Part shown: positions 608-64,000 of the stretch, piece by piece | Numbering within the stretch: position 1 is the stretch's first letter | Layout: each line of letters opens with the position of its first letter | Origin: Owenia fusiformis | Taxonomy: Eukaryota > Annelida > Polychaeta > Sabellida > Oweniidae | DNA: 64,000 nucleotides | NCBI GenBank assembly: GCA_903813345.2 | Contig: CAIIXF020000001.1 | Coordinates: forward strand, 2,666,001-2,730,000 | Reading direction: 5' to 3' | The notes under the pieces: generated by a model | Databases searched by the model: none | Told to the model about the DNA's origin: nothing | What the model saw: the letters and a program-made list of their open reading frames with translations, nothing else | Program-made: the position numbers and the translations under genes

Positions 608-19605
<18,998 letters not shown>

Positions 19606-27794: not shown

Positions 27795-28153
27795 AATATG
27801 CATTGCTTTGTAATGAAAAAAAGTCACACATTATATACGTATAGAGCAATACTCCCTGGTAGTGAATAGAATTACACTCCCCTCCATAAGTTTGGCAACC
27901 AGAGGTATTCATTGGATTGCATATTAAAGCATGGCAATGTTTGAATCTGAATTTTGTTCCTTGATTACAATATTTTGAAAATTTGATGATTTTTTAAATC
28001 TCCAAACACAAACAAGTTTTTGAAGAGAATCATCCAGAAGGACACTTCCAGTTGCCAAACTTATGGAAGGGAGTGTAATTCTGTTCACTACCAGGGACTA
28101 TTGCTATATAGATAATGTGTGACATTTTTTTTCATTACAAAGCAATGCATATT
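27795..28153. mobile_element. Palindromic miniature element with a second element at its centre
   Basis: Outer arms of about 80 bp (AATATGCATTGCTTTGTAAT and its inverse ending GCAATGCATATT) flank an inner element at 27875-28075. The inner element has CACTCCCCTCCATAAGTTTG termini and TA on each side. The centre of the outer palindrome reads AGAAT-TA-ATTCT once the insert is removed by eye. Confidence 0.75.
27875..28075. mobile_element. CACTCCCC-type TIR element, short copy
   Basis: 201 bp bounded by CACTCCCCTCCATAAGTTTG and its inverse, with flanking TA. The same termini bound the longer copy at 58839-59714. TA target site and lack of coding capacity point to a non-autonomous Tc1/mariner-group element. 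Confidence 0.8.
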
Positions 28154-33900: not shown

Positions 33901-36900
33901 TCTGAACTACTGTTCAGACCATAGGAGACAGGTTACCTGAAAAGGAAGATAGATATCATTATCTCTTATCTCAAGGACTGAAACTGAGGCAAGTCTACCC
34001 TGGCTGAAATCAGCTCTGAAATAACAATTACTGCATGTCAAGCCGTCATTCAATGCTGATTTTGTAGAAAACAGATCTGTCCATCCTTCTACATGTGAGT
34101 TTTTCCCATAAAGATGCTTGATTAAGTAGAAATTCATCAAATTATACCCCTAGAATATCAAAGTTCAACTGTACATCAATCGCGTGAGGAAAAAAAACAA
34201 ATCCATTCTTCACCTTCTGTTCACAAACCCTTCTTCTTCTTCTTGGAAAAGTTGTCCCTCATTTGACTAACAGCAAATGTGTATGTTTATGCAGCAATAT
34301 ATGTTAGTTTAGAAAATGATTAATTACAATCTTACCTGTACTTCACAGAAACATCCTAAGTATGAAAATATTTCACTAAAAATACATGCTTCCATTTTGT
34401 CACATGTTCATAATAATTTAAATATTGATCATGTGATGTTGACAGGGAGTGTAAACGCACCTAGCGTACAGGAAATATGTTATGATATTTATTAAGAAAT
34501 TAGGTATGGTAATCATTATTAATTAAGCATTAAGTATTAAGCCCCCAACCCACTTCACAAAGTTCATGAAATACCAAGGAAAGACCAAATATTAAATAAA
34601 TTAGAAAAATTTGAATTTCCAAAAAAATCAAGTGGGCGATAATAGAGTCTCTGAAACATTAAATTTTTCCTTCATTAACTTATTACATACATTTTTTTTA
34701 GATAATATTAGTTTGTATGTATGTATAATTTATTTGCCTCTTAATATAAAGAGAGTTACATTCATATTTTACATAAAATGATTAATAAGTGACCAGCATC
34801 ACAAAAATTATTAATAATAGTAATGATTTGATAAAAGCAGTTGTCTCTGCTTGTGCATTATATAAACGTACTGTGATATTTCTAATAGCTTCTCATGATC
34901 ACAACTAATGATACCTAATATTGACTTGAGAATAAAATTGTCATCTTGGACGTTAAAGATGCTTGTTACAATGTTAATCATCGGAACCCTCACTCCAGAA
35001 AAAGCTGGACATTTGAGTAAAAAATGTTTAACAGTTTCATTTTCATTAAGCTCACAAAGCACACATGTTTTACACATAGGTGTATCACCCTCGCGACGTC
35101 TACTGTTTAAACCGTAAGTTCCAGTTAGTAATTTTATCATAAGTTTTGTGCAGTACATATAATTGGGATTATTTCTTGCAATAATCCACCAAACATTTGG
35201 TTTCAATTCTACCAAGGAACCTGCCATCATATTGAGATTATTGTACATCAGTGCTGAGAGCACAGTGCTACGAGCATGAACATTTTTGACTCTATTGTAA
35301 ATGGTCTCTCTAAATTTTGATTTACTTGGAAATTTAGCATTGAAAATCATTTCCTTCACATAGTCAGTAAGATTATACTTCAGAACTGTTTCCCACATAT
35401 AAAATGAAGGGGATTTCATGCTTTTACAGGTAACAGATGTGTACATCATTCTTATTAATCGCTCTAAACATATGACTTTATATATACAATTCATAGGCAA
35501 ACATAACAGCATGAACAAAAACATAAGTCGGTCACAATCAATCTTCGCTTGAACTGACATCCAGCCAAGCAGCCTGACTGCCACAGGATCTGGTGTGTTC
35601 TTTGGCAATGACTGGATTCGCTTGCCAATCTCCCTGTGCGCACAATCCATCAGTTTAAAGTCATCCTCTGAGTATGGTATCACTGCACATCCATAAGTCA
35701 TGGTGGGGAAAGCAAAAGACCAGTACAGTTTTGAAGCTAATAATGGGTGAATGCCGCCACACCCGCTTCCTAGGCCCAAAAGTGAGCAGAACTTTCTTCT
35801 TGCTGCGGATATAGCACCTTTTACGTGTTCGGTTGTTTTCCCAAGAGGAATCCCAACGTGATGAGCTGACTGAACAGTTTTTATGACCGCCGTTCCGAGT
35901 TTAAAGTCGCAAATCGTCCTTTTTGCCGGGCCATACGTCATTATCACACACTTATCTGGATGAAATTCAAAACGCCATCGTCTACTGTATTCGTACGCTA
36001 TCTGAAGAAGTTCATTCATATGTCCTGGGTCAGTTGTTATAAGCGCGAGATCATCGGCATATGCAGGACAGCCTAGAGGGTGTCTTCCGATCTTTGCAAC
36101 AAATTGACTGTTTATTAATTCGTTTAAAAGGTCGGCAATGAAGAATTGGTAGAGATGCATACTGCAGATTCCTCCTTGATGGACTCCCCTGTGCACATGA
36201 AAAGATTCAGGATTTAGTACACCATTTACAAGAACTTTACATTTATATTTACAATATGAATTATACAAGAGTCGCCAAGCGAGGCCATTTATACCGATTT
36301 TGTACAGTTTCCAGAACAACCCATCTATCCAGGTACCATCGAAGGCTTTCCTAATGTCCATTAACGCCAAAAATACCCCTTCCTTAACATTATGTGCAAT
36401 AACTTCTTGAAGCAAAAATGATGTGTGAAGAGAAGAACACTTTTCGACAGAGGCACCCTGAAGTTGAGGGATAGCATTTCTGAGCCTTGGAAGCATCCTA
36501 GCGAGTACCATATTATCAAACAATTTTCTCAAAATACTCATTAAAGTAATACCTCTGTGGTGGTCTCTGTTAAGGCAATCTTTGTTACCTGACTTTAAAA
36601 GAGGAATAAGGATTCCTGTACAAAAGTTTTCTGGGATGTACTCACTTATACGAATTACGTTAAAAAGTAGTGTTATGACTATTGTCATATACTGACCACC
36701 ATATTTTATATGTTCTGCATTTAAACCATCATGACCAGCGGCTTTATTATTATTCAGTTTAAGTATACATTCATTAACTTCCTCAGTTGTAAAATCAGTG
36801 TCTAAAATAGCATCCTTATTTAATACAGACTCCATTTTCATTACTTCCATGTCTGAAACAACCTCACTTTCAAAATTACTGTCAAAAATGTCTCTATTGT

Positions 36901-39900
36901 CATATGAAGCCAGATTACAAAAATATGATTGCCACTCGTTACAAACTGCACTTGGATCCATAAGAATCTCCCCATTGTCTGCTCTTACAGCGCTGGATTG
37001 TTTACCTTTACAATGCCGGCTTTTATTTAAAAGATACCAGAAGGTCCGTTGATCTAAGTTCTCTGACTCATAGATCTCGTTCAACGTTTTATGTTCATAC
37101 TCTGTTTTAGATCTGTTGAATGCCACCCGGAAAATCCTCTTTGAGTCCTTATAATTCATTCTTGTTTGGTCCATTACGTCCCTCGGTCTCCCTGCGTTCA
37201 CCCAAGCGTGCCAAGCCCTTTTCTGCAGCTTCTTCAAACGAGTTAGTTCACTGTTCCAGAACGGCTTCTGATGCTTCATGAACTTTTTAACTGGAATAGC
37301 AGAATCAGCTCTTGATTTAATTACTTTGATTAATCTATCAATGTGATTGTCTATAGTTTTACTGTCAATATTGACCGTGGTTGACATTTCGTTAAACAAA
37401 GGCATTAAATCTGTTTGCATTGGGTTTGTAAAATGTTCAGTAATATCATTTTTGGTCACCCTGGTCCACGCATAAGTTTTCATTTCGCTAATAGGCATTG
37501 AATTAGTCATATGTTTTAAAGATGGCAGGTCAAATACACTCCGTATAGCTAGATGACCAAAATCTGCAGTGTGAGCGCTAGTCATTACGTCACAGCTAAT
37601 TACATGTTTCAATAAAAATTCAGATATTACAATATGGTCTATATAAGTTCTGTGCCCAGTGGCAGTTACATATGAATATCGTGGACCTTGTGAAATATTA
37701 TGTATATCAAGGGCTAATAAGCCATTGCGTTGCATCGTTTGAAACAATAATTGACCATTAACACTATGCTTACCAGTAGACCGTCGCGTTTCACATAAAC
37801 TGCCCAAATTGGCATTAAAATCCCCAGCAATAATACAATTTGCATCTTGTTTACATTGGCTTACACAATCTTCGAGAAAAATTAAAACATCCTCAAAAAT
37901 ATCATTTTTGCACCCTATTTGGGGCAAATATACAGAAAATACATAAATTGGTGTATTCGTTTCAACCTTAATACATGCAACCCTGTCAGTACAATATTTT
38001 CTAATCGGTGACACCGGATATTTTAAGGACTTTCGCCACATTAAGGCTATACCCCCATGTCCCCATGTTAGGCCACATTGCATTGAATCAAGTGATTTGC
38101 AGCTATAAGCAAGAGTGTTAAAATCAGAATCAACAGAACTTAATTTGTTAAGGTTACATTCAAACAAACGGTGCTCTGAAACAGCAACTATGTCGCTCGA
38201 CCTAAGCAGATCTCTCAGGTACACCTCCGAAGAATTCAGACCGTTGATGTTCCATTGCGATATAGATACCATTAACTGTATTAAAGTAACAAAGGTAAAC
38301 AGTAATTGCACTAAGAATATAATCTTGAATGTGATAGTTATGAAATGTATCTCGGTCTTAAATCAACATCACTTCTATCATCACTGTCAAAATAACGTCG
38401 TCTCCGACGTTCCCATACCCTACATTTAATAGGAACAGGCCACAAATCAACACAAAGAGCCCTATCTACCTGGTGTTTGGGTATCGTTATCTTGCATCCG
38501 ACTTTGTCACAGGATATCCGGTTATGCACAACATGTATCTGTTTCAACCTGATATTATTATCCAATGCAAAACGTTTCACATTATTGATTGTATCCTCGT
38601 CGTCCTCCTCACTTGATTGATAGATATTTTCTAAATAGAGCACACTCACTTCCTCATACTCAATGCCTCTCAGGCCACTATTTCGGGGTCGTGTGCTTAC
38701 ATTGTCACGCGTTGTAATCGGTCTTGTGGGGACTGTGTTAACATATTCCTTTTGTTTCGCCGCCGCCTTCTTTCGCCGAAGCTGATTATTTCCGAGCCAC
38801 GTCTGCCATTCCTTCCCAGGGGGATCTGGGCCCTTCCATACTCCGCGATCAGTGGGGGGTGGGCCGCGCCATACACCAGTCTCCGTCACACCATAGGTCA
38901 CCTGCTCACTCGTCCCTTTAAGCGTATTCAGGTTAAGATTCGATCTTGGGGGTCTGGGAGGAGTGGGACTCAGGGTTCTCGGCTGCGTAGGGGTTTGGGT
39001 TCTCGGGTACGTCTTCTGGGGACTGCCACGGGATGTGGGACTCTTAATACGTTGCTTGGATGGTTCAACGTTCGGTTTATTACATCCGTTGTTAGCTGCC
39101 GAACGGCATTCGGAGGGCAGCTGTGTATGCGACACATAGGTATTTTTCGATGCATCAGGGTAATCTTTATCAGGAGCCATACGATTTACATCACAAGCTG
39201 GGGTCGCACTGACCTGGTTCGATTCGGAAAGAATGTTATTGTTTACATTATTTGACCCATCGCTGGAATTCGGAACGACTGGGTCATTTTGCGTACTCAA
39301 CGACTTACTGGCATTCAATCCACTAATACAGGATTCGGCGAAATTAGTCATTACCTGTTGAGTTTGTTTAGGGGGTGCATTCGAATTCACTAGGTCGGAA
39401 GGTTTAGAGCTAGTTACAATACGTGTAATAGATGCTAGATTGCCCTGCATAGAGTTCGTATTCTGGGTTAGCTTTTCAAGCTCAGATTGCAACGTTTTAC
39501 ATGTTCCCGTGATCTGGTCAAGTTTCGAAGACAAAGTACAAATGTCCTTTCTCATAGAATCCCTCTCAACTTCTAGCTCCTTTACCTTCTGTGTTAGTAC
39601 TGTTATTGTAACATCCATAGATGCAGCACGTTCATTTCGATGCATGTTATTAGAGGCCTCCCTGGACACGGTTACCTCGGGCAGGAAACTGTTCGTACTC
39701 AAAACACCCTTTGGGAACATATCTACGTTATCTGTCAGGTATAAATATAAGTCGCATATGTCCATAACTGTATTAGTAAGCTTGTTCTTACCCTGGCGTT
39801 TCTTAGGCTGCAGATTTACAGGGACTTCATGTTCCTCGCGCTCTGCTAACGGTCCAAATAAAGAGTCACAATGCTCCGTGACTTTTGATTTTGCCTTTTC

Positions 39901-41351
39901 GAAGAAGTAATCACGTATCATGTCAAAATCCTCCTCGGATCCATCATGCAATAGCTGCTCGACAACGTCGTTCCTCGGTCCTTCAGTTAGTAAATTCAGA
40001 ATCTTCTCATAATATTGTAAATCCTCATCAGATGGCGGAGACATTTTGGAAACGTGTTTCCACCATTACACCGGAAGTATGTTTGATTGATATTGATACC
40101 ATTGATATGGTGTGGAAAGCACACAATGATAGATAATTATCGGGAGTATGCATTGAAAATTACAAAATATGTCACTTTTGCCATGTTTCAGAGGCTCTAT
40201 TATCGCCCACTTGATTTTTTTGGAAATTCAAATTTTTCTAATTTATTTAATATTTGGTCTTTCCTTGGTACTTCATGAACTTTGTGAAGTGGGTTGGGGG
40301 CTTAATACTTAATGCTTAATTAATAATGATTACCATACCTAATTTCTTAATAAATATCATAACATATTTCCTGTACGATAGGTGCGTTTACACTCCCTGT
40401 CAACATCACATGGTCAATATGTAAATTATTATGAACATGTGACAAAATGGAAGCATGTATTTTTAGTGAAATATTTTCATACTTAGGATGTTTCTGTGAA
40501 TTACAGGTAAGATTGTAATTAATCATTTTCTAAACTAACATATATTGCTGCATAAACATACACATTTGCTGTTAGTCAAATGAGGGACAACTTTTCCAAG
40601 AAGAAGGGTTTGTGAACAGAAGGTGAAGAATGGATTTGTTTTTTTTCCTCACGCGATTGATGTACAGTTGAACTTTGATATTCTAGGGGTATAATTTGAT
40701 GAATTTCTAGTTTCTACTTAATCAAGCATCTTTATGGGAAAAACTCACATGTAGAAGGATGGACAGATCTGTTTTCTACAAAATCAGCATTTAATGACGG
40801 CTTGACATGCAGTAATTGTTATTTCAGAGCTGATTTCAGCCAGGGTAGACTTGCCTCAGTTTCAGTCCTTGAGATAAGAGATAATGATATCTATCTTCCT
40901 TTTCAGGTAACCTGTCTCCTATGGTTCAGACGACACGTCCCATGTTATATCTTAAAAAAATCAGAGACGAGATTCGCTACAGTATCTACAAGGGACCACA
41001 GATTCATTGTACGTAAAACTAATTCATCTGAAATAAACAAACATTTTGCGAGTAAAAAGTGTATTTTTCGATATGATATTGCACTGTTTATTGAGCCCAT
41101 GATTGACACAAAGACTCCATGGTACCTGATTTATTATCATTTTGAGCATCAATCTTATCTTCAGATTTAACATCTTGATCCTCTTGGTCTTTAGATTGAA
41201 TCTTTATACATAAATTATTCCCATTCTGCTCCACTGGACTGACTGCAGCAACTGTGTCATCGGGCTCTTCTTTGAACATCCCATCTGCTTTTTTCCTATG
41301 TTTATCCCACCATGCTTTACGTCTATTAGCTCGCTCTTCGGCTTTACTCAT
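30959..41351 (-). CDS. Single-RRM, Nop6-like nucleolar RNA-binding protein
   Basis: Four coding exons: 41351-41126, 33609-33334, 32488-32394, 31156-30959; 795 bases, 264 residues, all joins in frame. The N-terminal 140 residues are charged and lysine-rich (AKKRRRNKKSKNK), as in nucleolar proteins. One RRM follows, with RNP2 LFVGNL at about 146-151 and RNP1 KPRGFAYIEF at about 183-192. The tail runs LLGRQINVEF, then a basic stretch ending KKFSKKF-like residues. The RRM plus GRxINVE and NRKDRLKLKN resembles yeast Nop6 and fission-yeast C365.04c, ribosome-biogenesis factors. Human RBM34 is a poorer fit because it has two RRMs. Intron 1 (7.5 kb) is host to a LINE inside inverted arms. The start is chosen at MSKAEERANRRK, 342 bases from the divergent MLF start. 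Confidence 0.87.
31160..31447. repeat. 41-bp minisatellite beside an RRM-gene splice acceptor
   Basis: ATGGGAAA.AATG recurs at 31168, 31209, 31250, 31291, 31332, 31373 and 31414, an exact 41-bp period over about seven units. On the transcript strand the array ends within a few bases of the acceptor (CCTGTTTCAG) of the last exon. The unit reads CCCATGTCTGTTTTTGC, similar to the CCCATACCTGTTTCAG junction. Confidence 0.93.
31817..32339. mobile_element. 523-bp TIR element with TA target site
   Basis: Termini CTGTACGCCCGGTATTATT and the inverse are flanked by TA. The arms carry many TTTCGCG/CGCGAAA motifs, unusually CpG-rich for this window. Non-coding. It lies in the last intron of the RRM gene, between the minisatellite and exon 32394-32488. 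Confidence 0.75.
32566..33043. repeat. Dispersed repeat family R2, copy 2
   Basis: Matches 16390-16908 over most of its length, including GGGTTTGGGGTAGATATCAC, GAGGAGCGGGCAGGATATAT and CCAAAACCTCCCAGT. It lies in the RRM gene intron between exons 32394-32488 and 33334-33609. Overlapping open frames are not genes. Confidence 0.75.
33918..34659. repeat. Left 742-bp inverted arm flanking the LINE
   Basis: Begins ACCATAGGAGACAGGTTACC and ends at GAGTCTCTGAAACAT. It is near-identical, in reverse orientation, to 40183-40925. A four-base TCAG abuts the outer end (33914-33917), and another TCAG abuts the outer end of the right arm. The outermost part encodes an open peptide with DFSQGRLASVSVLEIRDND and a GTAACC donor-like site, of unknown meaning. 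Confidence 0.88.
34811..38311 (-). CDS. LINE ORF2 protein: endonuclease and reverse transcriptase, 1166 aa
   Basis: The N-terminal APE-like endonuclease (about residues 15-250) has QWNINGL, SEHRLFE, AGDFNANLG and a TYIDHIVIS motif. The reverse transcriptase (about 500-800) has NNKAAGHDGL, ALMDIRKAFDGTW, GVHQGG and the catalytic AYADDLAL. Near the end CKTCVLCELNENETVKHFL..C forms the cysteine/histidine cluster common in CR1/Jockey-type elements. The first methionine is 26 bases after the ORF1 stop, so ORF2 could be made by reinitiation. No internal stop is present. Confidence 0.93.
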   Translation of the reverse strand: MQLLFTFVTLIQLMVSISQWNINGLNSSEVYLRDLLRSSDIVAVSEHRLFECNLNKLSSVDSDFNTLAYSCKSLDSMQCGLTWGHGGIALMWRKSLKYPVSPIRKYCTDRVACIKVETNTPIYVFSVYLPQIGCKNDIFEDVLIFLEDCVSQCKQDANCIIAGDFNANLGSLCETRRSTGKHSVNGQLLFQTMQRNGLLALDIHNISQGPRYSYVTATGHRTYIDHIVISEFLLKHVISCDVMTSAHTADFGHLAIRSVFDLPSLKHMTNSMPISEMKTYAWTRVTKNDITEHFTNPMQTDLMPLFNEMSTTVNIDSKTIDNHIDRLIKVIKSRADSAIPVKKFMKHQKPFWNSELTRLKKLQKRAWHAWVNAGRPRDVMDQTRMNYKDSKRIFRVAFNRSKTEYEHKTLNEIYESENLDQRTFWYLLNKSRHCKGKQSSAVRADNGEILMDPSAVCNEWQSYFCNLASYDNRDIFDSNFESEVVSDMEVMKMESVLNKDAILDTDFTTEEVNECILKLNNNKAAGHDGLNAEHIKYGGQYMTIVITLLFNVIRISEYIPENFCTGILIPLLKSGNKDCLNRDHHRGITLMSILRKLFDNMVLARMLPRLRNAIPQLQGASVEKCSSLHTSFLLQEVIAHNVKEGVFLALMDIRKAFDGTWIDGLFWKLYKIGINGLAWRLLYNSYCKYKCKVLVNGVLNPESFHVHRGVHQGGICSMHLYQFFIADLLNELINSQFVAKIGRHPLGCPAYADDLALITTDPGHMNELLQIAYEYSRRWRFEFHPDKCVIMTYGPAKRTICDFKLGTAVIKTVQSAHHVGIPLGKTTEHVKGAISAARRKFCSLLGLGSGCGGIHPLLASKLYWSFAFPTMTYGCAVIPYSEDDFKLMDCAHREIGKRIQSLPKNTPDPVAVRLLGWMSVQAKIDCDRLMFLFMLLCLPMNCIYKVICLERLIRMMYTSVTCKSMKSPSFYMWETVLKYNLTDYVKEMIFNAKFPSKSKFRETIYNRVKNVHARSTVLSALMYNNLNMMAGSLVELKPNVWWIIARNNPNYMYCTKLMIKLLTGTYGLNSRRREGDTPMCKTCVLCELNENETVKHFLLKCPAFSGVRVPMINIVTSIFNVQDDNFILKSILGIISCDHEKLLEISQYVYIMHKQRQLLLSNHYYY
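38338..40044 (-). CDS. LINE ORF1 protein, 568 aa
   Basis: Nucleic-acid-binding chaperone-type ORF1 expected upstream of LINE ORF2. Visible parts: an acidic N-terminal helical region (from MSPPSDEDLQYYEKILNLL), a coiled coil around residues 140-210 (VKELEVERDSMRKD), a low-complexity asparagine/serine stretch and a proline-rich stretch (PTQPRTLSPTPPRPPRS). Two GVW-GP repeats follow (GVWRGPPP, GVWKGPDPP). The C-terminal domain contains VSVLYLENI and WPVPIKCRVWERRRRR, the fold seen at the end of many invertebrate LINE ORF1 proteins. No zinc knuckle was seen. Uninterrupted. Confidence 0.85.
   Translation of the reverse strand: MSPPSDEDLQYYEKILNLLTEGPRNDVVEQLLHDGSEEDFDMIRDYFFEKAKSKVTEHCDSLFGPLAEREEHEVPVNLQPKKRQGKNKLTNTVMDICDLYLYLTDNVDMFPKGVLSTNSFLPEVTVSREASNNMHRNERAASMDVTITVLTQKVKELEVERDSMRKDICTLSSKLDQITGTCKTLQSELEKLTQNTNSMQGNLASITRIVTSSKPSDLVNSNAPPKQTQQVMTNFAESCISGLNASKSLSTQNDPVVPNSSDGSNNVNNNILSESNQVSATPACDVNRMAPDKDYPDASKNTYVSHTQLPSECRSAANNGCNKPNVEPSKQRIKSPTSRGSPQKTYPRTQTPTQPRTLSPTPPRPPRSNLNLNTLKGTSEQVTYGVTETGVWRGPPPTDRGVWKGPDPPGKEWQTWLGNNQLRRKKAAAKQKEYVNTVPTRPITTRDNVSTRPRNSGLRGIEYEEVSVLYLENIYQSSEEDDEDTINNVKRFALDNNIRLKQIHVVHNRISCDKVGCKITIPKHQVDRALCVDLWPVPIKCRVWERRRRRYFDSDDRSDVDLRPRYIS
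40183..40925. repeat. Right 743-bp inverted arm flanking the LINE
   Basis: Starts ATGTTTCAGAGGCTCTATTA at the LINE 5' end and finishes CAGGTAACCTGTCTCCTATGGT, the inverse of 33918-34659 with only scattered differences. TCAG follows at 40926-40929. The two arms meet the LINE at GAAACAT and ATGTTTC, so without the LINE they would form one long palindrome. Confidence 0.88.
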
Positions 41352-48460: not shown

Positions 48461-50035
48461 TCAGAGCAAAGTCACCTGAGTTCCGATAACATTTTTCTCC
48501 TCAACTTTCGTCAGTTCTGGTATGGTTTGGGTAAATGGAGATGGTACACCTCCAAATGGTGGTGGGCTCTTTGGACTAATCACAGAAGGACTCAGTTGTT
48601 TGGATGGCAGGGCATCGGCTTTAACTTCTAATTTAGTTGCGCCTGGGGGTAGTCCAGCTTGAGCCAATGCACCCGGAGGCGGTCCGCCTTGAGCCAATAC
48701 ACCCGGAGGAGGTCCACCTTGAGCCAATACACCCAGAGGCGGTCCACCTTGAGTCATTGCACCCGGAGGCGGCCCACCTTGAGTCATTACACCCGGAGGC
48801 GGTCCACCATGAGTCATTACACCAGGGGGCGGTCCACCTTGAGCCAATACACCCGGAGGTGGGCCTCCAGAACCCATACCTGGTGGAGGGCCACCCATTT
48901 CAGGAAAGAATTCATCTTTGATCGCTTTTACTCTTTCAAGAGTTGTGGCGAATATGCATATCTGACATAGCTGAAGTATATTAGGCACAAGTGGAATTGT
49001 GCTGAGGACAACAATCTTGCCGTCCGTCACCGTTTCCGATTTTTTCAAGATGTCTTCGACTGTGCCCGCCGCTGCGACACCGTACTTTAAAACCGCCACT
49101 GGCATACCGCAACTTCCCATTTCTCGCGCCAAAATCATCAATGGCGTTGCTGTATCAAATGGAGCGTTGATATCAATTGCGTAGAGTTTACCATCTTTGT
49201 CTTCTAACACGTCCATAGCAACGAGGCCAAAGTAGTTGTTTTTCTTGAACGCTTTGCTCGCTGGAATCACGATTTCCTGAAGTTTTGCTTCGGTTGCCTT
49301 TTGCTTTTCGTTGTACCAGACGGCACCTTGCCACTGTTGTTCCGAGTCAACCATTGATTCTGTGGCTCCTATCCAAGTTACATTACCGGCTTTGTCTAAG
49401 TAGAACTGACAACTGTAATTGCACACCGCTTCGATCAACTCGGTGTAAAGTAGCTCCGCATCAGGCGTATATTTCTCAATCTTGCTTTTCGCCTTGTGAA
49501 GATCTTCCTCACTTTTTACAATAAATGTGCCATATCCTGCAAATCCATGAGACGTTTTCATGACGCATGGAATCTTTGGTTCGGACAGTACTTTAGGCTG
49601 GGGACATTCGGTCTCAGTAATAAAAAGCTTTGATGCAACTTTATAATGTTCTTCTGGATCGACCGTTTGTAACTTAGCGTCTAATTCTTCGACGGGGAAG
49701 AGCATTAGATGTGGCACGCTCGTCCCATATTCTTCCGTCCAAACGGGTTCCTCATAAAACGAGCCCAGTGTTGTCTTCCAGTGGTCGACTAGACATTGAG
49801 GTGGACGTTGGGGAAGGTATACTTTTATTGCATTCCCCGTTATTGGCAACATCGTATGCAGCAACATTCGGGCGCCCGACCCACCGTCATCTTTGTAATC
49901 CCTGATATCGTGAATCTTATACTTGGTCGTATTGTTGAATTGAGCCGATGGAGCCCCATGACTTGATACCAGACTCATCATAAAGATGGCATCTCCGGAC
50001 AAATCCTTCCTGTAAAGGTCCGACAACTTAGTCAT
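48461..50035 (-). CDS. ATP-grasp domain protein with GGPPPG repeat tail
   Basis: Single coding exon, 524 residues, starting MTKLSDLYRKDLSGD. The frame opens a further 7 codons upstream, but TATGTTTCAG just before ATGACTAAG looks like the acceptor of a 5' UTR intron, so the second methionine is chosen. The middle third has ATP-grasp signatures: PCVMKTSHGFAGYG (nucleotide-binding lysine and flexible loop), a central YTELIEAVCNYS strand region and YAIDINAPFD, where D and N fit metal ligands. The substrate is unknown; the family makes carboxylate-amine or -thiol bonds. From about residue 390 the chain holds GGPPPG followed by VLAQ, VMTH, VMTQ or similar, eight or nine times. The end is TKVEEKNVIGTQVTLL. 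AATAAA on minus lies about 260 bases past the stop. Confidence 0.82.
   Translation of the reverse strand: MTKLSDLYRKDLSGDAIFMMSLVSSHGAPSAQFNNTTKYKIHDIRDYKDDGGSGARMLLHTMLPITGNAIKVYLPQRPPQCLVDHWKTTLGSFYEEPVWTEEYGTSVPHLMLFPVEELDAKLQTVDPEEHYKVASKLFITETECPQPKVLSEPKIPCVMKTSHGFAGYGTFIVKSEEDLHKAKSKIEKYTPDAELLYTELIEAVCNYSCQFYLDKAGNVTWIGATESMVDSEQQWQGAVWYNEKQKATEAKLQEIVIPASKAFKKNNYFGLVAMDVLEDKDGKLYAIDINAPFDTATPLMILAREMGSCGMPVAVLKYGVAAAGTVEDILKKSETVTDGKIVVLSTIPLVPNILQLCQICIFATTLERVKAIKDEFFPEMGGPPPGMGSGGPPPGVLAQGGPPPGVMTHGGPPPGVMTQGGPPPGAMTQGGPPLGVLAQGGPPPGVLAQGGPPPGALAQAGLPPGATKLEVKADALPSKQLSPSVISPKSPPPFGGVPSPFTQTIPELTKVEEKNVIGTQVTLL
48648..48895. repeat. 30-bp coding minisatellite
   Basis: In-frame 30-base units (CACCCGGAGGCGGTCCACCT type) encode the 10-residue GGPPPG repeats of the ATP-grasp protein. 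The unit is a multiple of three, so copy-number change would not break the frame. Confidence 0.85.
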
Positions 50036-50509
50036 CTTGAGACTGAAACATACCAAAAATCGTTAGATGAAACAGTAAAAAGGTAAGAGCGTAAAAAGCG
50101 TAAAACAAAGGACGAGATATAGATTCTCGTTTCGTACGCCAGGTAAAGAAGGACTGTGGAAAGATAAGTCTGTAATTTCGGATACTTCACAAAAATTGTG
50201 TGATGAACTGGACGTAGACTGGTAGATCAAATGAAAAATAATGGTTATGAATAAAGATCTGGGCAATTATAAATTGGCGGAAACATTGAATGGAATTAAT
50301 ATTTAGATTGAGATAAAATTGTTTCTTGTAGCGCAGATGAGAGTTGAAAATGGTTTCGAAATAATTTTATAAGTTGTTATTTTAATTTAATTTATAAACT
50401 GTAAAACGCTGATTAATAGCGTTCGCCGTCTTATCATTGTAATTAGTGGAATATGTAGGTGCTTATCTATAAGTGTCGTAAGTGTGAATCTTCAAGAGGA
50501 ACTATTCAT

Positions 50510-55204: not shown

Positions 55205-58200
55205 AATCGTCTTTAAGATCGTTTAGAACTTGTTGTTAAATGCGGTGATCTCGCTATAGAATTGATTTGTTCTCCAGCTTATAAGTGCACTAGGTTTTCC
55301 AATCAAAACCTCTCGGGAGTCTAGAAAAAACATAAGATCACGTTCAGGAGTTTTGTCAATAAAAAGTATAGATTCCCTTTACTGTGTACAGCACTTCTAT
55401 GTAATTGAACAGTTTATTACCCGATCCCATAAGTGTTAAATTGCATTTCACCAATACATTTTTAATATTTTGACGACGTAGATAAATAATATTAATTTTG
55501 TTATATCTTACTTATTTTAGATTTTTGTTGCTAGAGTAACACAACCACAGTAGTAAAGTTTTTGGTATACATATTGTAAAAACAATTTACCATTGCGATA
55601 AATGGTATAAAAAGTCATGATATATCAAAACAAATAAGTGATATATTTAATTTGAAAAGATACATACCTTATCCTATCGAGTTTCGTGAAATGATTGACG
55701 TCTCATCTATAAAACAGAAATCGCAAACTGTGGAACAAACAACATATGAAATCGTTACAAACTGTGGAACAAACAACATATGAAATCGTTACAAACTTTG
55801 CAGTTACAGATTGGTATTGATCCAAAACTAGTACAGTACATAGAGATTTCTTATATCAAATACAATTTAGAGTTCTAATGTGTTCACTTACTTCACAAGG
55901 CTGTGTGTCGATTGGGTTGTGCAAATATTTACTTGAGCGAGTATTGTTGAAGTTTTATAGAAACTTGAAGTTGCTCTTCATTGTTGGATAAATCTACTAA
56001 TATAGTAGATAAATCTAGACCTAGTGTAAGAAGGTAATATCTTCAGTAGTAGCCCGTAAAACCCATTTGTATTTTAGACATTATGTAGCATTTCTGGGGT
56101 AACATTCTAGGTATTAATTCATCAATAACACCATGTCAAAGAAGATTGTTCTTAGACGCGATTATGTAATTGCACAAAATGTGCATTTGTCACAGCACCC
56201 AGATTCACAACATATATTTCACGATGTATAGTTTCGATAAAGACAAAACAAGACCTTTCATATGGTACCAAATATGAAAAGTTGTATGGGGTGTTTCTCA
56301 CATACCATGCTGTAAAGGTCTTCTACGAGAATAACTAACTTTTCTGCGTCCTTTTGGCTGCCATCTTTTATCGTAACACTTACATTTTCTTTGGTATTCT
56401 TCACTGTCAGGGTTTGGCGATTTTGGGGGCTGTCGAGTTGCCTAAATGGGTTTTGTAAAAACGCAGCATGTTAGACTGACCATCGTAGCCCCGGGGGTCG
56501 CGATGTCCACACTCACACCCCTCCCGGCGATGACCAGTCTAACATGCAAGCTTCTGCCATCTAACCAACTGCACACGCCATGTTTTGTTATTATATTGGG
56601 AGAGGGATCATGGACATTACCAACTGTTGTGGATATGACTTAAAGAAATGCATGTGGTGATCTTTGTTTAGTCGTTATCTTCAGCTTAATGACCGAACAA
56701 GCTTTCATTAAGACTTTTCAAAGAAAGTAAACCCAGGAATTTACCATAAACAGTGTGATATATGGAATTTGTAAATAAATTCAGGTAAACGTCTTGGATC
56801 GAATGGCCAGTAACCTATCGTAACCCGATCCGTCATCATGAGAAATCATGGCCTCCTATTAGCTTCACACTAGTATAGCTGGTTGAAGACAGAAAGATGT
56901 GATGAGTATCAGAATTCCGATCCGTTTATCATCGGTTTCTTGTGGTAGTCGACTTCAAGGCATGCTTGATTTCAACCTAACACTCATGGAAGTCGACGAG
57001 GGTTGTTATATTTGAACCGGACTTGAATTATACATATTTTTTAGACGTTGGGTATTTATCCCACGATTATTGTGTTATTTGTACTTTTGTACTCATGTGT
57101 TATTATGTTCTCACCCAATGATATTTCCCAATATCAGATAATTTCTTATGATATCATTTTATTGTCTGGTAGATATCAAATATCAACACTCATTCGACTC
57201 GCCCAGAGACTTGTGTTGATAAAAGATATCAAATCATCGATAAAATGATTACACTCAAAATGATCTGATATTCTGTCTTTATATTTGATTTTTCCATATT
57301 CACTTACAGCAAGTTAAAAAAATGGTACATCATGGGATAAATTCGTCAATTGTAAGACATCAATTTGTCTCTGGCCTTTTCAAATGGGTTGATATACCTC
57401 TTATTTCTCGCCAACAAACTTGAAATGCGGAATACAGAGACCAACGTAAGAAGGTTAGGTTAATGTGAAATGGATAATATACATCGATATATGCAAACTG
57501 CAAAATTAAAGAAGGATTGCGAGGGAAACATTTGCAGCGATTGGAAGATACACTCTCTAAACAGTTATTCTACAGCCGGGGTGACACAAAACCACTACAA
57601 TACCTTTCTCAACTATGCTGACCTACGTAGATAGAACGGTGTTCATGGCGGGAAAGAGTGGATGCTTATTATTTGAAATTCACGACTTTGAGATTTAGAG
57701 ATATCACTTTTTCGGCTTTAAATTTACGCCATATCACTCAAACTCCATGTTAAGAATATGTAATAATGTGTCATGTTTACAAAATAATTAATCATTCCAT
57801 AAAAGTGATCGTTAGTAGATTAGTAACAATTTGTATGAAACAAATCCAGAAATACAAGGTGACACAAAAATGCCACCCACTTATTTTGGAATAACTTTCT
57901 CAGTAATGAGGGAATCTTCATTACTTTTTATACGTAAAGTGATTGGTATTTTTTGTGTATTGATAGACTGTTCAATGGGAGAAAGACTGCTTTAGTTGTG
58001 TAGCATCAAATTTCTACAAAGTCGTTTATGTTACATCTGAAATTTTAAAGCATATACTAGAAAATCGAGACGATTATGTACATCTTAACTGGGAAAATCA
58101 GAAACTTTCATCTATGTGCTTCCCTGTATGATTAAACAAAATATCAAAATATTTTCTTGCAATCATATAACCTCTTTATTTCTAAAATACATACCCAAGA

Positions 58201-58597: not shown

Positions 58598-61500
58598 TTA
58601 GTGTCTTACAACGCCTGAAATGGTTCTGGGTCCTTTATTAAAACCATATTTGTAGTCCGCTGGTTCACTAAAATGCTCAGAATCATATTTGTTGCTTCGT
58701 GTAACTTCAAACTTCTGTTTCTCTAGGTCTTTTCCACTTCTCCTGGAAAGTCAAAAATCAGGGGCTCATTTTAGTTGTTATTTTAGATTATATAAGTGTC
58801 AGGTAAAAGACTAAAGAGATACTCTATTGGTAGATATACACTCCCCTCCATAAGTTTGGCAACCTTTTCCCCCCATTGAACTACGTGTTAAAGCCTCTTT
58901 ACCTTTGAATTTTTATTTACTTAACCTGCGATGAAAATACTTATACTATTGATGGAAACGTAATTTGATTTTAATTCCAATACCTCCAAATTTTCTCAAT
59001 TTTTTTCCTCAATTACAATAGGTCGAAAATTGATGATGAATTTGATGAATTTTTGAAAATCGACATTCCCATGTTAACCAATGGGAAATGGTAGGTTTGC
59101 CGCAAGTCATATGACAGAATATCCATCCATCCGAGTCCTTGCAAAAAATACGAGTTAGGCAGGTAATTGAATTTGCTAACTTTATCTAACAAAAAATTGA
59201 TATGTTTCTTCAGGTTCAACAAAGTTATAGGGCTTTAAACTGTCAAAATTGATTTTTAAAAAACCTCTCCCATTGAAATAACACAGGAGGCGAAAAATAA
59301 TTTTCAAAAATGACTTTGAAGCGCTGTAACTTTAATATTCATCAAATAAACTAAACACTTAGTGTTCAAAAAGTTAGACAATTCAATTTTCTATATGAAA
59401 ATATTTTTTTGCTGAATTTTTTACTGAAAAGATATCCTGATTTCTGATTTGCCCTGAACCCTCCATTTCCCATTGGATTACATGAGAATGACGATTTTCA
59501 AAAATTCATCAAATTTATCATCAATTTTCGACCTATTTTAATTGAGGAAAAAATTGAGAAAATTTGGAGGTATTGGGAATAAAGTCAAGTTACGTTTCCA
59601 TCAATATCATAAGTTATTATATCGCCGGTTAAGTAAATAAAAATTCAAACGTAAAGAGGCTTTAACACGTAGTTCAATAGAGAAAATAGGTTGCCAAACT
59701 TATGGAGGGGAGTGTAGAACCATTCAGGGTGACCTGAATGATGAAATATGATTTATATTTTGCCTGAAAATGGTCTGACCAAAGTACATATTCAAATACA
59801 AATGATTTGGAATTATAACGTCATGCCGTACAATAATAATAGTCACCTACCTTTTCATACTGCAGCATAAGGCTATCAAAAGCACAAGGAGAACAAGGAC
59901 GAGGAGTCCACCAAATATAGCCACCCAGAACCACCATTTTCTCCAAACTGGATCCGCTTTACGTGGCGCGGGAGCTACAAAGTCAAACACTACAAAACAT
60001 ATATGCTTCTTAAGAATGTATCACAATCAATTTTTACGCCGTAATTTAAGAGAGATTTCGGAACGCGCACTGCATATGGGTCAGTGTTTTGTAATGTGAC
60101 TCTTCTCAAAATTACTTAGATAACTGTAAATTGAAATACTTACTTGCTTTAGTAGGCGTCTTAGTTGTTGGAAGCGCCGTACTTGAACCCGGAATAATTC
60201 TGTTTTCACATAATCTTCCCGTGAAACCATCAGGACAAACACAACTAGAGGTATCAGCATCGTTCCTACACGTCCCTCCGTTCTGACAGACAACAGCGTT
60301 TGGTCTGTCACATGGGAGAACATACGTTTCACACAGATCACCTCTATAGTTTCTACGACAGCAACATGTCTTCTTGAAACATATTCCATCATTTCTACAA
60401 TTCCCAGCATCTGGACATTCAGGGTCGTTTGCAATGTTTGGTGATTTTACTGTGCAGTTATTTGGAGGTCCCCAATTTTGTTCACACAACTTCTCTCCAG
60501 TTGTAGGATGGCAGGTGTAGTGCCCGCGTTCACAACTACTCTCATCTGCTTTACATCTCACAGAACAGGTTGGACCATAATACCCATCTCGGCAAACTAA
60601 CCTGGTTGTTGTTCTCGCCGTAGAAGGACTGGTTATTCGACTTGATTGTAATGTTACGACAGTTGATGTTGTGGGTACTGCAGTCGTCATGTTGCTCGAT
60701 GGATCAATACAATCCCGACTATTATTGGCATTGCGACAGCACAGTCCTTTTCCATCTTCATTTCGACAGAAAACGCCTGTTATGTTATCACATTTCACAT
60801 CTTCGCATGGAAGTTTGACAATGTTACATCCTTCTCCTTTGAAACCTGGATTACAACAGCACTGGTTATTAAAACAATGAGAATTTCGCGTATCGCAACC
60901 GACTGTTGGACAGTCTGTATGATCCTCATTGATTTTGTCAATGCAATTTTGATCTGGATTTCTATAACCATCAAGACAGATCTTAGCCCCTGTGTTTTGA
61001 TCACATCTGTAATGACCAGCACAAGAGTTCTCTGGTTTACAATGCACATCACAGTTTGGACCATATTTATGCCTTTCACAACGCATCCTAGTTTCACAAT
61101 TGTTCCCAGTGTAAAATGATGTGCAATCACATTTGTAATTGAAAGGACCATCCCGGCTACATGTTCCTCCATTGGCGCATGGATTACTTCCACATGGGTT
61201 CATCTGTTCCTGACAAAGATCCCCTGTATATCCTAGCATACAGCAACAAGACTTCGCAAAACAGGAACCCATATCGCACTGGCCGGAATCTGGACATTCT
61301 GGGTCGGCAGCAGGTGAAACGGCACGAACTGTACAGTTGGTGCTTACGTCAGCCCAGCCATCTCGACAGATTTTAGTCCCGCCATTACATATATAGTGAC
61401 CTTCAGCGCAGTTATCTCTAGGGCTACATGAATCTTGTGATTCAACTTTGAAAAATTCACTCTCAATGTCACGTTTTATTCTACCAGTTTCATTTGTTGT

Positions 61501-64000
61501 TGTCTCATTAACGTTGGTATCATTGGAATAACGAGGTGGCAATGGTGTTGCAGGATTAAATATATCACAATATGGTCCAGTCCACCCATAATGACAACAG
61601 CATGTCTGTCTATGACATTCCCCATAGCGACACATTTCTCCATTTGGGCCAATTGGTGGGCATTCGGTATCGTTCCATTTCGGCCAGTATCTTGTTCTAC
61701 AGTCACTTGCCACGCATTCCCAGTGTTCTCTACAGATCTTACTGCCATCTGGACCACAAGTGTAGTGGCCTTCACTACAGCTATCAGCTTCCCTACAGAA
61801 AACATTACATGCAGGTGGGTTGAAATAATTTGGTGGACATCCATTCCAGGTTGTATCGCATAATAAGCCAGTCCACTGAGGAGGACATATGCATCGGAAA
61901 TCTCCATCAAATCCTGGAGAGAGGTTTACACACGTCCCTCCATTCATACACCTATTTCTTTCACAAGGCATATTTTGTATCTCACATAATTCTCCTCTAA
62001 AGTTTCTAGGACAGCAACATGTTTTCTGAAAGCATGCTCCTCCGTTGAGACATACACCTCTGTCAGGGCATTCTCTATCAGAACTAGGCGGGGTCTCCTT
62101 TACTGTGCAGTTAGCTTCTGGTCTCATCCAGCCATCAAGGCACACCTTATTGCCTGTCTGACAATCACATGTGAAGTGACCATCACAATCATTCTGAGGA
62201 AGACAATAACGTTCGCAACGTTGACCATAATAATTAGGTGGACATCTTTGTACGTATCTCTCACAGTTCGTTCCTTCAAAGTTCTGGCAACAGCTACATG
62301 TATAGCCTCCTATTCGTGGTGTACATGTTCCACCATTAAGACAGGGTTGACTTGCGCAATAATCAATAAACGTTTCACATCGACGTCCAGTGTAATGTTC
62401 ATCACAGCAACAATTACCTTTATAGCATCTACCATACAAACAAGGAGAGTCTCTTGGGCAATCGGGGTCAGCTGGTGGAGGGATGGTCTTTATTTTACAA
62501 TCCACATCGGGGTTGGTGTACCCCGGCAAGCACTCCTTGGCTCCAGTGAATGGGTTACAGGTATAATGACCTCTCTCACAATCATCGGCTGCAAGACAGT
62601 ACACATTGCAAGCCGGTGGGTTGTAGTAATTTGGTGGACATTGCGGATCATATGTTTCGCAATGAGTACCAGTGTAGTCCCTCAAGCAGATGCATGTGTA
62701 CCCACCGACCGTTGGACTACATGTACCTCCATTTTGACAAGGTCGGCTTACGCAATAGTCTATAAATGTTCCACATCTTGCACCAGTGTAATGTGTATTG
62801 CAGCAACACGTTCGTCTATAGCATCTCCCATAAATACATGGAGAGTCAGTTGGGCAATCTGGATCATTTGGTGGAGGGAGTGTTTTTACTTTGCAGTCAT
62901 TTTCAGGAACTGCATATCCAGGAAGACAAACCTTCGCCCCTGTGTTTGGATCACATGTATAATGGCCTCTGTCACAATCATCTGCAGCAAGACAGTAAAC
63001 ATTGCAAGCTGGTGGGTTGTAGTAATTGGGAGGACATTGCGGATCATATGTTTCACACCATCTCCCTGTGTAGTCTCTTGGACATGTACACGTAAACCCT
63101 CCAACAGTGGGATTGCAAGTCCCACCATTTTGGCATGGACGACTGACACAATAATCTATAAATGTTTCACATCTAACTCCAGTGTAATGTTCATTACAGC
63201 AACATGCTCGTCTGTAGCATCTTCCATAAACACATGGAGAGTCAGTTGGACAATCTGGATCAGTTGGTGGAGGGATTGTTTTTACTTTACAATCATTTTC
63301 AGGAACTGCATACCCAGGTAGACAAACCTTCGCTCCTGTGTTTGGATCACATGTATAATGGCCTCTGTCACAATCATCTGCAGCAAAACAGTACACATTA
63401 CACGCTGGTGGGTTGTAGTAATTGGGAGGACATTGCGGATCATATGTTTCACAATGTGTACCCGTGTAGTCCCTTAAGCAAGTGCATGTGTATCCACCTA
63501 CCATTGGATTACACGTACCTCCATTTTGACAAGGCTGACTTACACAATAGTCAATAAATGTTTCACATCTTACACCAGTGTAATGTTCATTACAGCAACA
63601 CGACTGTCTGTAGCATCTTCCATAAACACATGGAGAGTCAGTTGGGCAATCTGGATCAGTTGGTGGAGGAATAGTTTTGAGTTTACAATCATTTTCAGGT
63701 ACTGCATATCCAGGTAAACAAACCTTGGCTCCTGTGTTTGGGTCGCAAGTATAATGGCCTCTATCACAATCATCTGCGGCAAGACAGTATACATTGCAAG
63801 CAGGTGGATTGTAGTAATTTGGGGGACATTGCGGGTCATATGTTTCACAATGAGTGCCTGTGTAGTCCCTCAAACATGTACATGTGTAACCACCAACGAT
63901 AGGGTTGCACGTTCCGCCATTTAAACATGGTTGACTTGTACAGTAGTTGATGAACGTTTCACATCTAGTGCCAGTGTAGTGCTCGTTGCAACAACATCCA
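58598..64000 (-). CDS. Multi-DSL, EGF-repeat type I membrane protein (partial, 5' end outside window)
   Basis: Exons 64000-60144 (open to the edge), 59974-59851 and 58742-58598; at least 1374 residues. The ectodomain repeats a module of one DSL-like domain (C.P.YY...C...C..ADDC..GHYTC......C......C), a CCC-type EGF (C-x5-C-x4-C-x4-CCC-x8-C) and in most modules a classical EGF. At least nine modules are visible; the seventh DSL lacks its N-terminal half. Classical EGFs carry CVSRPC/CVSQPC (O-glucose consensus) and CQNGGTC (O-fucose consensus), as in Notch-pathway proteins. GRIKRD between modules 6 and 7 fits a furin site. A Thr/Ser-rich stalk, a helix from WFWVAIFGG to ALCC and a 49-residue tail ending SGVVRH follow. 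Notch ligands have one DSL domain after an MNNL domain; whether MNNL exists here is unknown. It could be a ligand, decoy or adhesion receptor. Confidence 0.9.
58839..59714. mobile_element. CACTCCCC-type TIR element, 876-bp copy
   Basis: Termini CACTCCCCTCCATAAGTTTG and the exact inverse, flanked by TA. The arms continue for roughly 270 bases each (for example CAATACCTCCAAATTTTCTC and GAGAAAATTTGGAGGTATTG), so the whole element can fold. It fills most of the last intron of the DSL gene. Same family as 27875-28075. Confidence 0.88.
62250..64000 (-). repeat. 396-bp coding tandem repeat (DSL-EGF-EGF modules)
   Basis: GGACATTGCGG recurs at 62636, 63032, 63428 and 63824, an exact 396-base (132-codon) period. 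Modules are near-identical between about 62650 and the window edge and diverge gradually below that. The array continues out of the window, so the full copy number is unknown. No intron interrupts it in view. Confidence 0.93.

Follow-up and report, generated by a model that had tools for sequence, protein, structure and literature searches.

An array of at least nine DSL domains on a predicted type I membrane protein of the annelid Owenia fusiformis

Notch ligands normally carry one DSL module, and DSL domains are usually read as the mark of a Notch ligand; counts of 'Delta-like' genes depend on them. Here, we analyzed a gene of Owenia fusiformis that encodes at least nine DSL domains. It lies on contig CAIIXF020000001.1 of assembly GCA_903813345.2, in a stretch of 64,000 nucleotides (positions 2,666,001 to 2,730,000 of the forward strand), which is referred to at its full length as the window. 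The multi-DSL membrane protein is real, being a membrane-anchored DSL-EGF array and a variant of a kind of multi-DSL protein that has already been published. Delta and Jagged (Serrate) share with the array the DSL fold, a short EGF domain after the DSL domain, further EGF domains and a membrane helix, and provide both its best structural and its best DSL sequence matches. They have, however, one DSL domain with an F-x-R-P-R...F face and six cysteines, whereas the array has at least nine DSL domains, the full face in none of them, and seven cysteines in six of the nine segments, eight in two and five in the truncated one. Neither MNNL nor VWC is seen in the visible part of the array: Pfam finds no MNNL domain in the 1295 residues visible, the 5' end lying outside the window, and VWC is not among the six Pfam families found at E up to 1, where the membrane-proximal part was visible and the 5' part was not. 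Delta has been defined by a signal peptide and an MNLL/MNNL domain, a DSL domain, at least nine EGF repeats, a transmembrane helix and an intracellular domain (PMC5356439; this and the other papers are cited from the parts of their texts available to us). With the DSL domain taken as one, the array departs from this layout, as nine DSL domains are interspersed among the EGF domains; a transmembrane helix and tail are present in the splice model. The ancestral bilaterian Delta has an ATEV motif at its C-terminus (PMC5356439), which is absent from the array protein, the tail of which ends in GVVRH.

Proteins with several DSL domains have been published in cnidarians, bivalves and Capsaspora (PMC2770060, PMC8166818, PMC4810162), and an earlier description of the Owenia array, made from the sequence alone (the sequence-only reading), as undescribed was thus too strong. 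Cnidarian genes contain 1-11 DSL repeats, and one combines MNLL with 3 DSL domains (PMC2770060). The Nematostella genes resemble the array in their many DSL repeats per gene but reportedly contain DSL domains only, and their authors allowed for misassembly (PMC2770060). A screen of 138 lophotrochozoan DSL genes attributed their expansion mainly to tandem repeats in bivalves and separated one branch with EGF domains from one without (PMC8166818). Bivalve multi-DSL genes are like the array in having several DSL domains per gene by tandem repetition, and a DSL branch with EGF domains exists; the branch of DSL and DSL-tandem-repeat genes, unlike the array, is without EGF. The available part of that paper makes no mention of an extra-cysteine module, a membrane helix or a loss of the Notch face in the bivalve genes. 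The Delta-like receptor tyrosine kinase of Capsaspora has two DSL domains (PMC4810162), and thus, like the array, more than one DSL domain together with EGF repeats in its outer part, but it carries a kinase where the array protein has only a short tail. In the available parts of the cited multi-DSL papers, neither a DSL domain with an extra cysteine followed by an EGF-like domain with a CCC run, nor absence of the Notch face, is described, and that of PMC10970066 contains nothing on DSL arrays. Searches by wording in the open-licence literature, for multiple DSL domains and for a DSL domain together with mussel and EGF-like, gave no papers, which is no proof of absence. When relatives were sought by peptide pattern, four stretches of prokaryote genomes matched, none of which was confirmed, and viral contigs gave no match.

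The gene is on the minus strand. Its open frame runs from 63999 to beyond 60144 without a stop, and the translation comprises 1295 residues, 185 of which (14%) are cysteines. The sequence-only reading had also claimed a membrane helix and a short tail, and both were found when two splices were allowed, each of the GT..AG type and with matching phases; this splice model is derived from the genomic sequence alone, rather than from a transcript. The window thus contains the 3' part of an animal gene that encodes a type I membrane protein, with the helix and tail in the predicted splice model, where the cytoplasmic tail has about 50 residues and contains lysine. The gene features are as follows.

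60144..63999, minus strand: large exon with the repeat ectodomain, an open frame of 1285 codons and 0 stops; donor GTAAGT after 60144, phase 1; 5' end beyond the window
59851..59989, minus strand: membrane-helix exon; an alternative acceptor, with start at 59974, is likewise in frame
59868..59924, minus strand: core of the membrane helix, 19 residues, mean hydropathy 3.25; position obtained by counting back from the end of the exon
58598..58742, minus strand: last coding exon of the splice model, with the cytoplasmic tail and stop codon
58175..58180, minus strand: possible poly-A signal AATAAA

No further DSL or EGF copies were found by tblastn in the window below position 57000 (E 1e-3). An RGD at residue 1219 is probably there by chance. 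The last intron of the gene contains, at 58838-59715, an element with 27-base terminal inverted repeats that is palindromic throughout (76% self-match) and looks like a DNA transposon of the miniature inverted-repeat transposable element type; the same 27-base terminal repeat flanks a shorter element at 27874-28076.

Pfam assigned nine DSL stretches (E 2.5e-24) and eight EGF stretches to the 1295-residue translation. On the whole protein, EGF_TEN, the long Teneurin EGF profile, outscores DSL (E 1.6e-34), which speaks against calling the segments DSL domains. When each segment was scanned alone, DSL was nonetheless the best family in all nine, and eight passed the curated gathering cut-off of Pfam DSL (PF01414), namely 24.2 bits. 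The claim of at least nine DSL-type copies is thus borne out, and an unrelated EGF family, for which the sequence-only reading had proposed a profile search as a check, can be ruled out segment by segment. The protein's nine CCC EGF-like segments, scanned as a control, had no DSL match at E up to 1 (0/9) and matched no family above its cut-off. The GHYTC pattern, described earlier as common to the copies, is exact in only six of the nine segments, while segments 5, 7 and 8 read GHFTC, GHYIC and GHYRC, respectively; YYG is exact in segments 5 and 9 only. The six core DSL cysteines are present in eight segments, segment 7 keeping four. Similarly, the statement that EGF domains follow each DSL domain holds for the CCC EGF-like domain, which comes directly after the DSL domain and has seven cysteines in all nine units, but an ordinary second EGF domain is found in only seven, as it is missing from unit 6 and degenerate in unit 8. 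The modules of the ectodomain are listed below, with Pfam DSL scores in bits.

63829..63999, minus strand: partial unit 0 at the window edge, end of a CCC EGF-like domain and a complete EGF domain
63679..63834, minus strand: DSL segment 1, 30.4 bits
63568..63684, minus strand: CCC EGF-like domain 1
63445..63564, minus strand: EGF 1
63283..63438, minus strand: DSL segment 2, 30.4 bits
63172..63288, minus strand: CCC EGF-like domain 2
63049..63168, minus strand: EGF 2
62887..63042, minus strand: DSL segment 3, 31.3 bits
62776..62892, minus strand: CCC EGF-like domain 3
62653..62772, minus strand: EGF 3
62491..62646, minus strand: DSL segment 4, 31.8 bits
62380..62496, minus strand: CCC EGF-like domain 4
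62257..62376, minus strand: EGF 4, with one extra cysteine
62101..62250, minus strand: DSL segment 5, 46.5 bits, the top DSL score; one further extra cysteine
61987..62106, minus strand: CCC EGF-like domain 5
61852..61983, minus strand: EGF 5
61693..61845, minus strand: DSL segment 6, 28.6 bits; a further extra cysteine
61564..61698, minus strand: CCC EGF-like domain 6, with the second EGF missing after it
61429..61566, minus strand: cysteine-free linker of 46 residues between units 6 and 7, with 3 N-glycosylation sequons and one RIKR furin-like motif
61327..61452, minus strand: DSL segment 7, truncated, lacking C1 and C2; 20.2 bits, below the cut-off
61216..61332, minus strand: CCC EGF-like domain 7
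61090..61212, minus strand: EGF 7
60937..61086, minus strand: DSL segment 8, 36.1 bits
60829..60942, minus strand: CCC EGF-like domain 8
60700..60825, minus strand: degenerate cysteine-rich EGF-like stretch 8
60448..60600, minus strand: DSL segment 9, 25.8 bits
60331..60453, minus strand: CCC EGF-like domain 9
60196..60330, minus strand: EGF 9

The partial unit 0 lies at the window edge and would therefore imply at least a tenth module, with one more DSL domain outside the window. In the linker, RIKR could permit shedding of the outer array; a planned cleavage point is not claimed, as 1 match compares with 0.38 expected by shuffling (P 0.32).

Sequence searches of the PDB point to the same family as the segment scans. 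For DSL segment 5, 12 of the 13 matched sequences are Notch ligands (E up to 0.1), the best being Jagged-2 at 7.6e-12, and for segment 8 the figure is 11 of 12 (E up to 1), where both counts include several versions of one protein. The structure of unit 1, modeled from a nine-unit alignment, has a mean predicted local distance difference test score (pLDDT) of 89.9 and a predicted template modeling score (pTM) of 0.64. In Foldseek, the seven best matches of this model are chains of Jagged-1, DLL4 and DLL1, with E of 8.9e-10 to 1.5e-7, and Notch EGF chains come next in the set of 45 matches with E up to 0.001. Template modeling scores by query length are only 0.27 to 0.38 among the 50 matches listed, and the model differs from the ligand chains by root-mean-square deviations of 6.5 to 23.7 Å; the likeness is therefore a domain-by-domain one. 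A two-unit model (pLDDT 85.1, pTM 0.50) has DLL1 as its first match, with Notch EGF chains interspersed. The segment scans, the PDB and Foldseek matches and the splice model together support a genuine DSL array on a membrane protein.

Two cysteines set the modules apart from JAG1, JAG2 and DLL1. In the nine-unit alignment, an extra cysteine in the DSL loop between C3 and C4 is invariant (9/9), as is a second one, the middle cysteine of the CCC in the next EGF-like domain (9/9). The former is found in none of JAG1, JAG2 and DLL1, the first EGF domains of which read C-x-C with no cysteine between. Segments 1-9 contain 7, 7, 7, 7, 8, 8, 5, 7 and 7 cysteines, respectively. By unit, the count is 20 in units 1-3, 8 and 9, and 21 in units 4 and 5, the extra cysteines of which sit in the adjacent EGF 4 and DSL 5; unit 7, where C1 and C2 were lost together, has 18. 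The disulphides of the DSL domain connect consecutive cysteines (PMC3415683). Given this pairing, the per-unit counts and the presence of both extra cysteines in every module, we infer that the DSL-loop cysteine pairs with that of the CCC in each of them.

In JAG1, residues F199, R201, R203 and F207 reportedly form a conserved Notch-binding face, the importance of which was confirmed by mutants (PMC3415683). All four are kept in the canonical ligands compared, namely JAG1, JAG2, DLL1 and Drosophila Delta, according to printed alignments (DLL4 and Serrate were matched without one). No segment of the array retains all four: F207 is found in 0/9, and R201, R203 and F199 in 1/9 each. The F199 place, before C3, is aromatic in six segments, five of which have Y and one F, while the other three have S, H and R. 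Read over segments 1-9, the residue after C3 is L, F, L, L, L, R, S, K and K; the R203 place is A, A, A, A, Q, A, R, E and D-or-E (segment 9 being ambiguous); and the F207 place is R, R, R, R, D, E, E, A and R. The spacing between C3 and C4 is the canonical 11 in segments 5 and 8, in a gap-free reading, and 12 or 13 in the other seven.

The tandem array has a period of 396 bases and 4.2 copies. Its four full units of 132 residues differ by 12.6-28.5% in DNA, and all six pairs show a synonymous divergence (dS) of 0.6-2.2 and a ratio of nonsynonymous to synonymous divergence (dN/dS) of 0.04-0.10. These ranges exclude partial unit 0, the 57-residue comparisons of which gave dN of 0.07-0.24, with dS not computable. 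The low ratios indicate purifying selection, and units 1-3 look like old copies that were kept alike by selection on the protein. In this group the least change is seen in the DSL part: over pairs 1-2 and 2-3 it has 2 replacement to 24 synonymous changes, as compared to 29 to 64 for the EGF part (Fisher P 0.02).

Considering these data, we propose, with a probability of roughly 0.55, that the product serves in adhesion or recognition, is built from DSL-EGF modules locked by disulphides, and does not act as a classical Notch ligand. The outer part of the type I membrane protein strings together at least nine modules, each comprising a DSL domain, a seven-cysteine CCC EGF-like domain and, usually, an ordinary EGF domain. 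A bond between the DSL-loop cysteine and the CCC cysteine would lock each DSL domain to its EGF domain and stiffen the chain, such that the array might project from the cell and use its many DSL surfaces, which are nearly identical, to bind a partner by avidity; its role would be in adhesion or recognition rather than in classical Notch agonism. Of the options that the sequence-only reading had raised, a new cell-surface recognition family is the one favored here. A further step, in which the DSL domain, freed from Notch, has become a general, disulphide-locked repeat brick in a receptor or adhesion protein with a partner of its own, making up a separate recognition family, is offered tentatively, as the odds are rather against it.

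Several points weigh against this proposal. The extra disulphide is deduced from the co-occurrence of the two cysteines, and unit 6 has an odd number of cysteines (15), with DSL 6 leaving one without an evident partner. Two of the five unit models are poor (pLDDT 69.3 and 61.4), and the interdomain angles of the unit model differ from those of solved ligands. In the Fisher test of the DSL against the EGF part, the counts are few and rounded, the two pairs share unit 2 and singly give P 0.09 and 0.25, and pairs with unit 4, for which the DSL part shows 12.7-13.2 replacement changes, were excluded. The contacts of the face were defined on vertebrate and fly ligands, and losing them is no proof of lost Notch binding in another phylum. 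Finally, the 5' end is outside the window, and the sequence upstream may encode an MNNL domain as well as a first DSL domain of the canonical type.

The protein could instead modulate Notch signaling as a decoy or cis-inhibitor, binding Notch or its ligands through its EGF domains or the remaining DSL contacts without activation. Eight EGF domains carry a C-x4-[ST]-C motif (three more matches, inside DSL segments, were not counted) and six carry C-x-S-x-[PA]-C, as in EGF domains of the Notch pathway; we take these to be motifs of the O-fucose and O-glucose type, respectively. Such motifs occur in many EGF domains, however, and the loss of the face counts equally here, making this explanation an unlikely one. 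No better placed is a structural or matrix protein, adhesive or related to cuticle or shell, in which DSL-EGF would be only a rigid, cysteine-rich spacer. The 14% cysteine, the repeat build, linkers that are Thr/Ser-rich or glycosylated and an EGF match to the mussel foot protein PVFP-5 (E 2.1e-8 and 1.5e-9) are in line with such a protein, but the PVFP-5 match covers the EGF domain only, the DSL part is the least changed among units 1-3, and a membrane helix and tail are present. Slightly more doubtful still is the multivalent canonical ligand that had been suggested earlier, an array that engages and activates several Notch receptors. True DSL domains, a short EGF domain followed by EGF domains, a membrane helix and a tail that contains lysine all agree with the general plan of Delta; yet F207 is lost in all nine segments and the full face is found in none, as compared to the four canonical ligands, no MNNL domain is seen in the visible part (although the 5' end is outside the window), and the tail ends in GVVRH rather than in the ATEV of bilaterian Delta (PMC5356439), all of which weakens that suggestion. 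Lastly, an assembly artefact or pseudogene, as a long tandem array of this period might suggest, is rejected as highly improbable, given the synonymous divergence among the units, their low dN/dS and the 1285 stop-free codons.

Elsewhere in the window, a LINE-like retroelement (LINE, long interspersed nuclear element) with two open reading frames lies at 33918-40925, with endonuclease and reverse transcriptase at 34811-38362 and the other frame at 38338-40065, both on the minus strand. It is enclosed by inverted repeats of about 745 bases that are 97% identical (33918-34659 and 40183-40925), which seem unusual around a LINE. Exons of a CDC48/VCP-like AAA ATPase (AAA, CDC48_2) are found at 8650-16543 on the minus strand, and a 533-codon open frame at 48461-50062 has ATP-grasp-like matches and a GGPPPGV-type repeat near its C-terminal end.

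The nine DSL domains of the DSL-EGF array are under constraint although not one has the full Notch face, which suggests that selection can act on this domain for another role. Multi-DSL genes of this kind call for caution in naming a gene a Notch ligand, and the central question that they pose is what the DSL surfaces of such an array bind.

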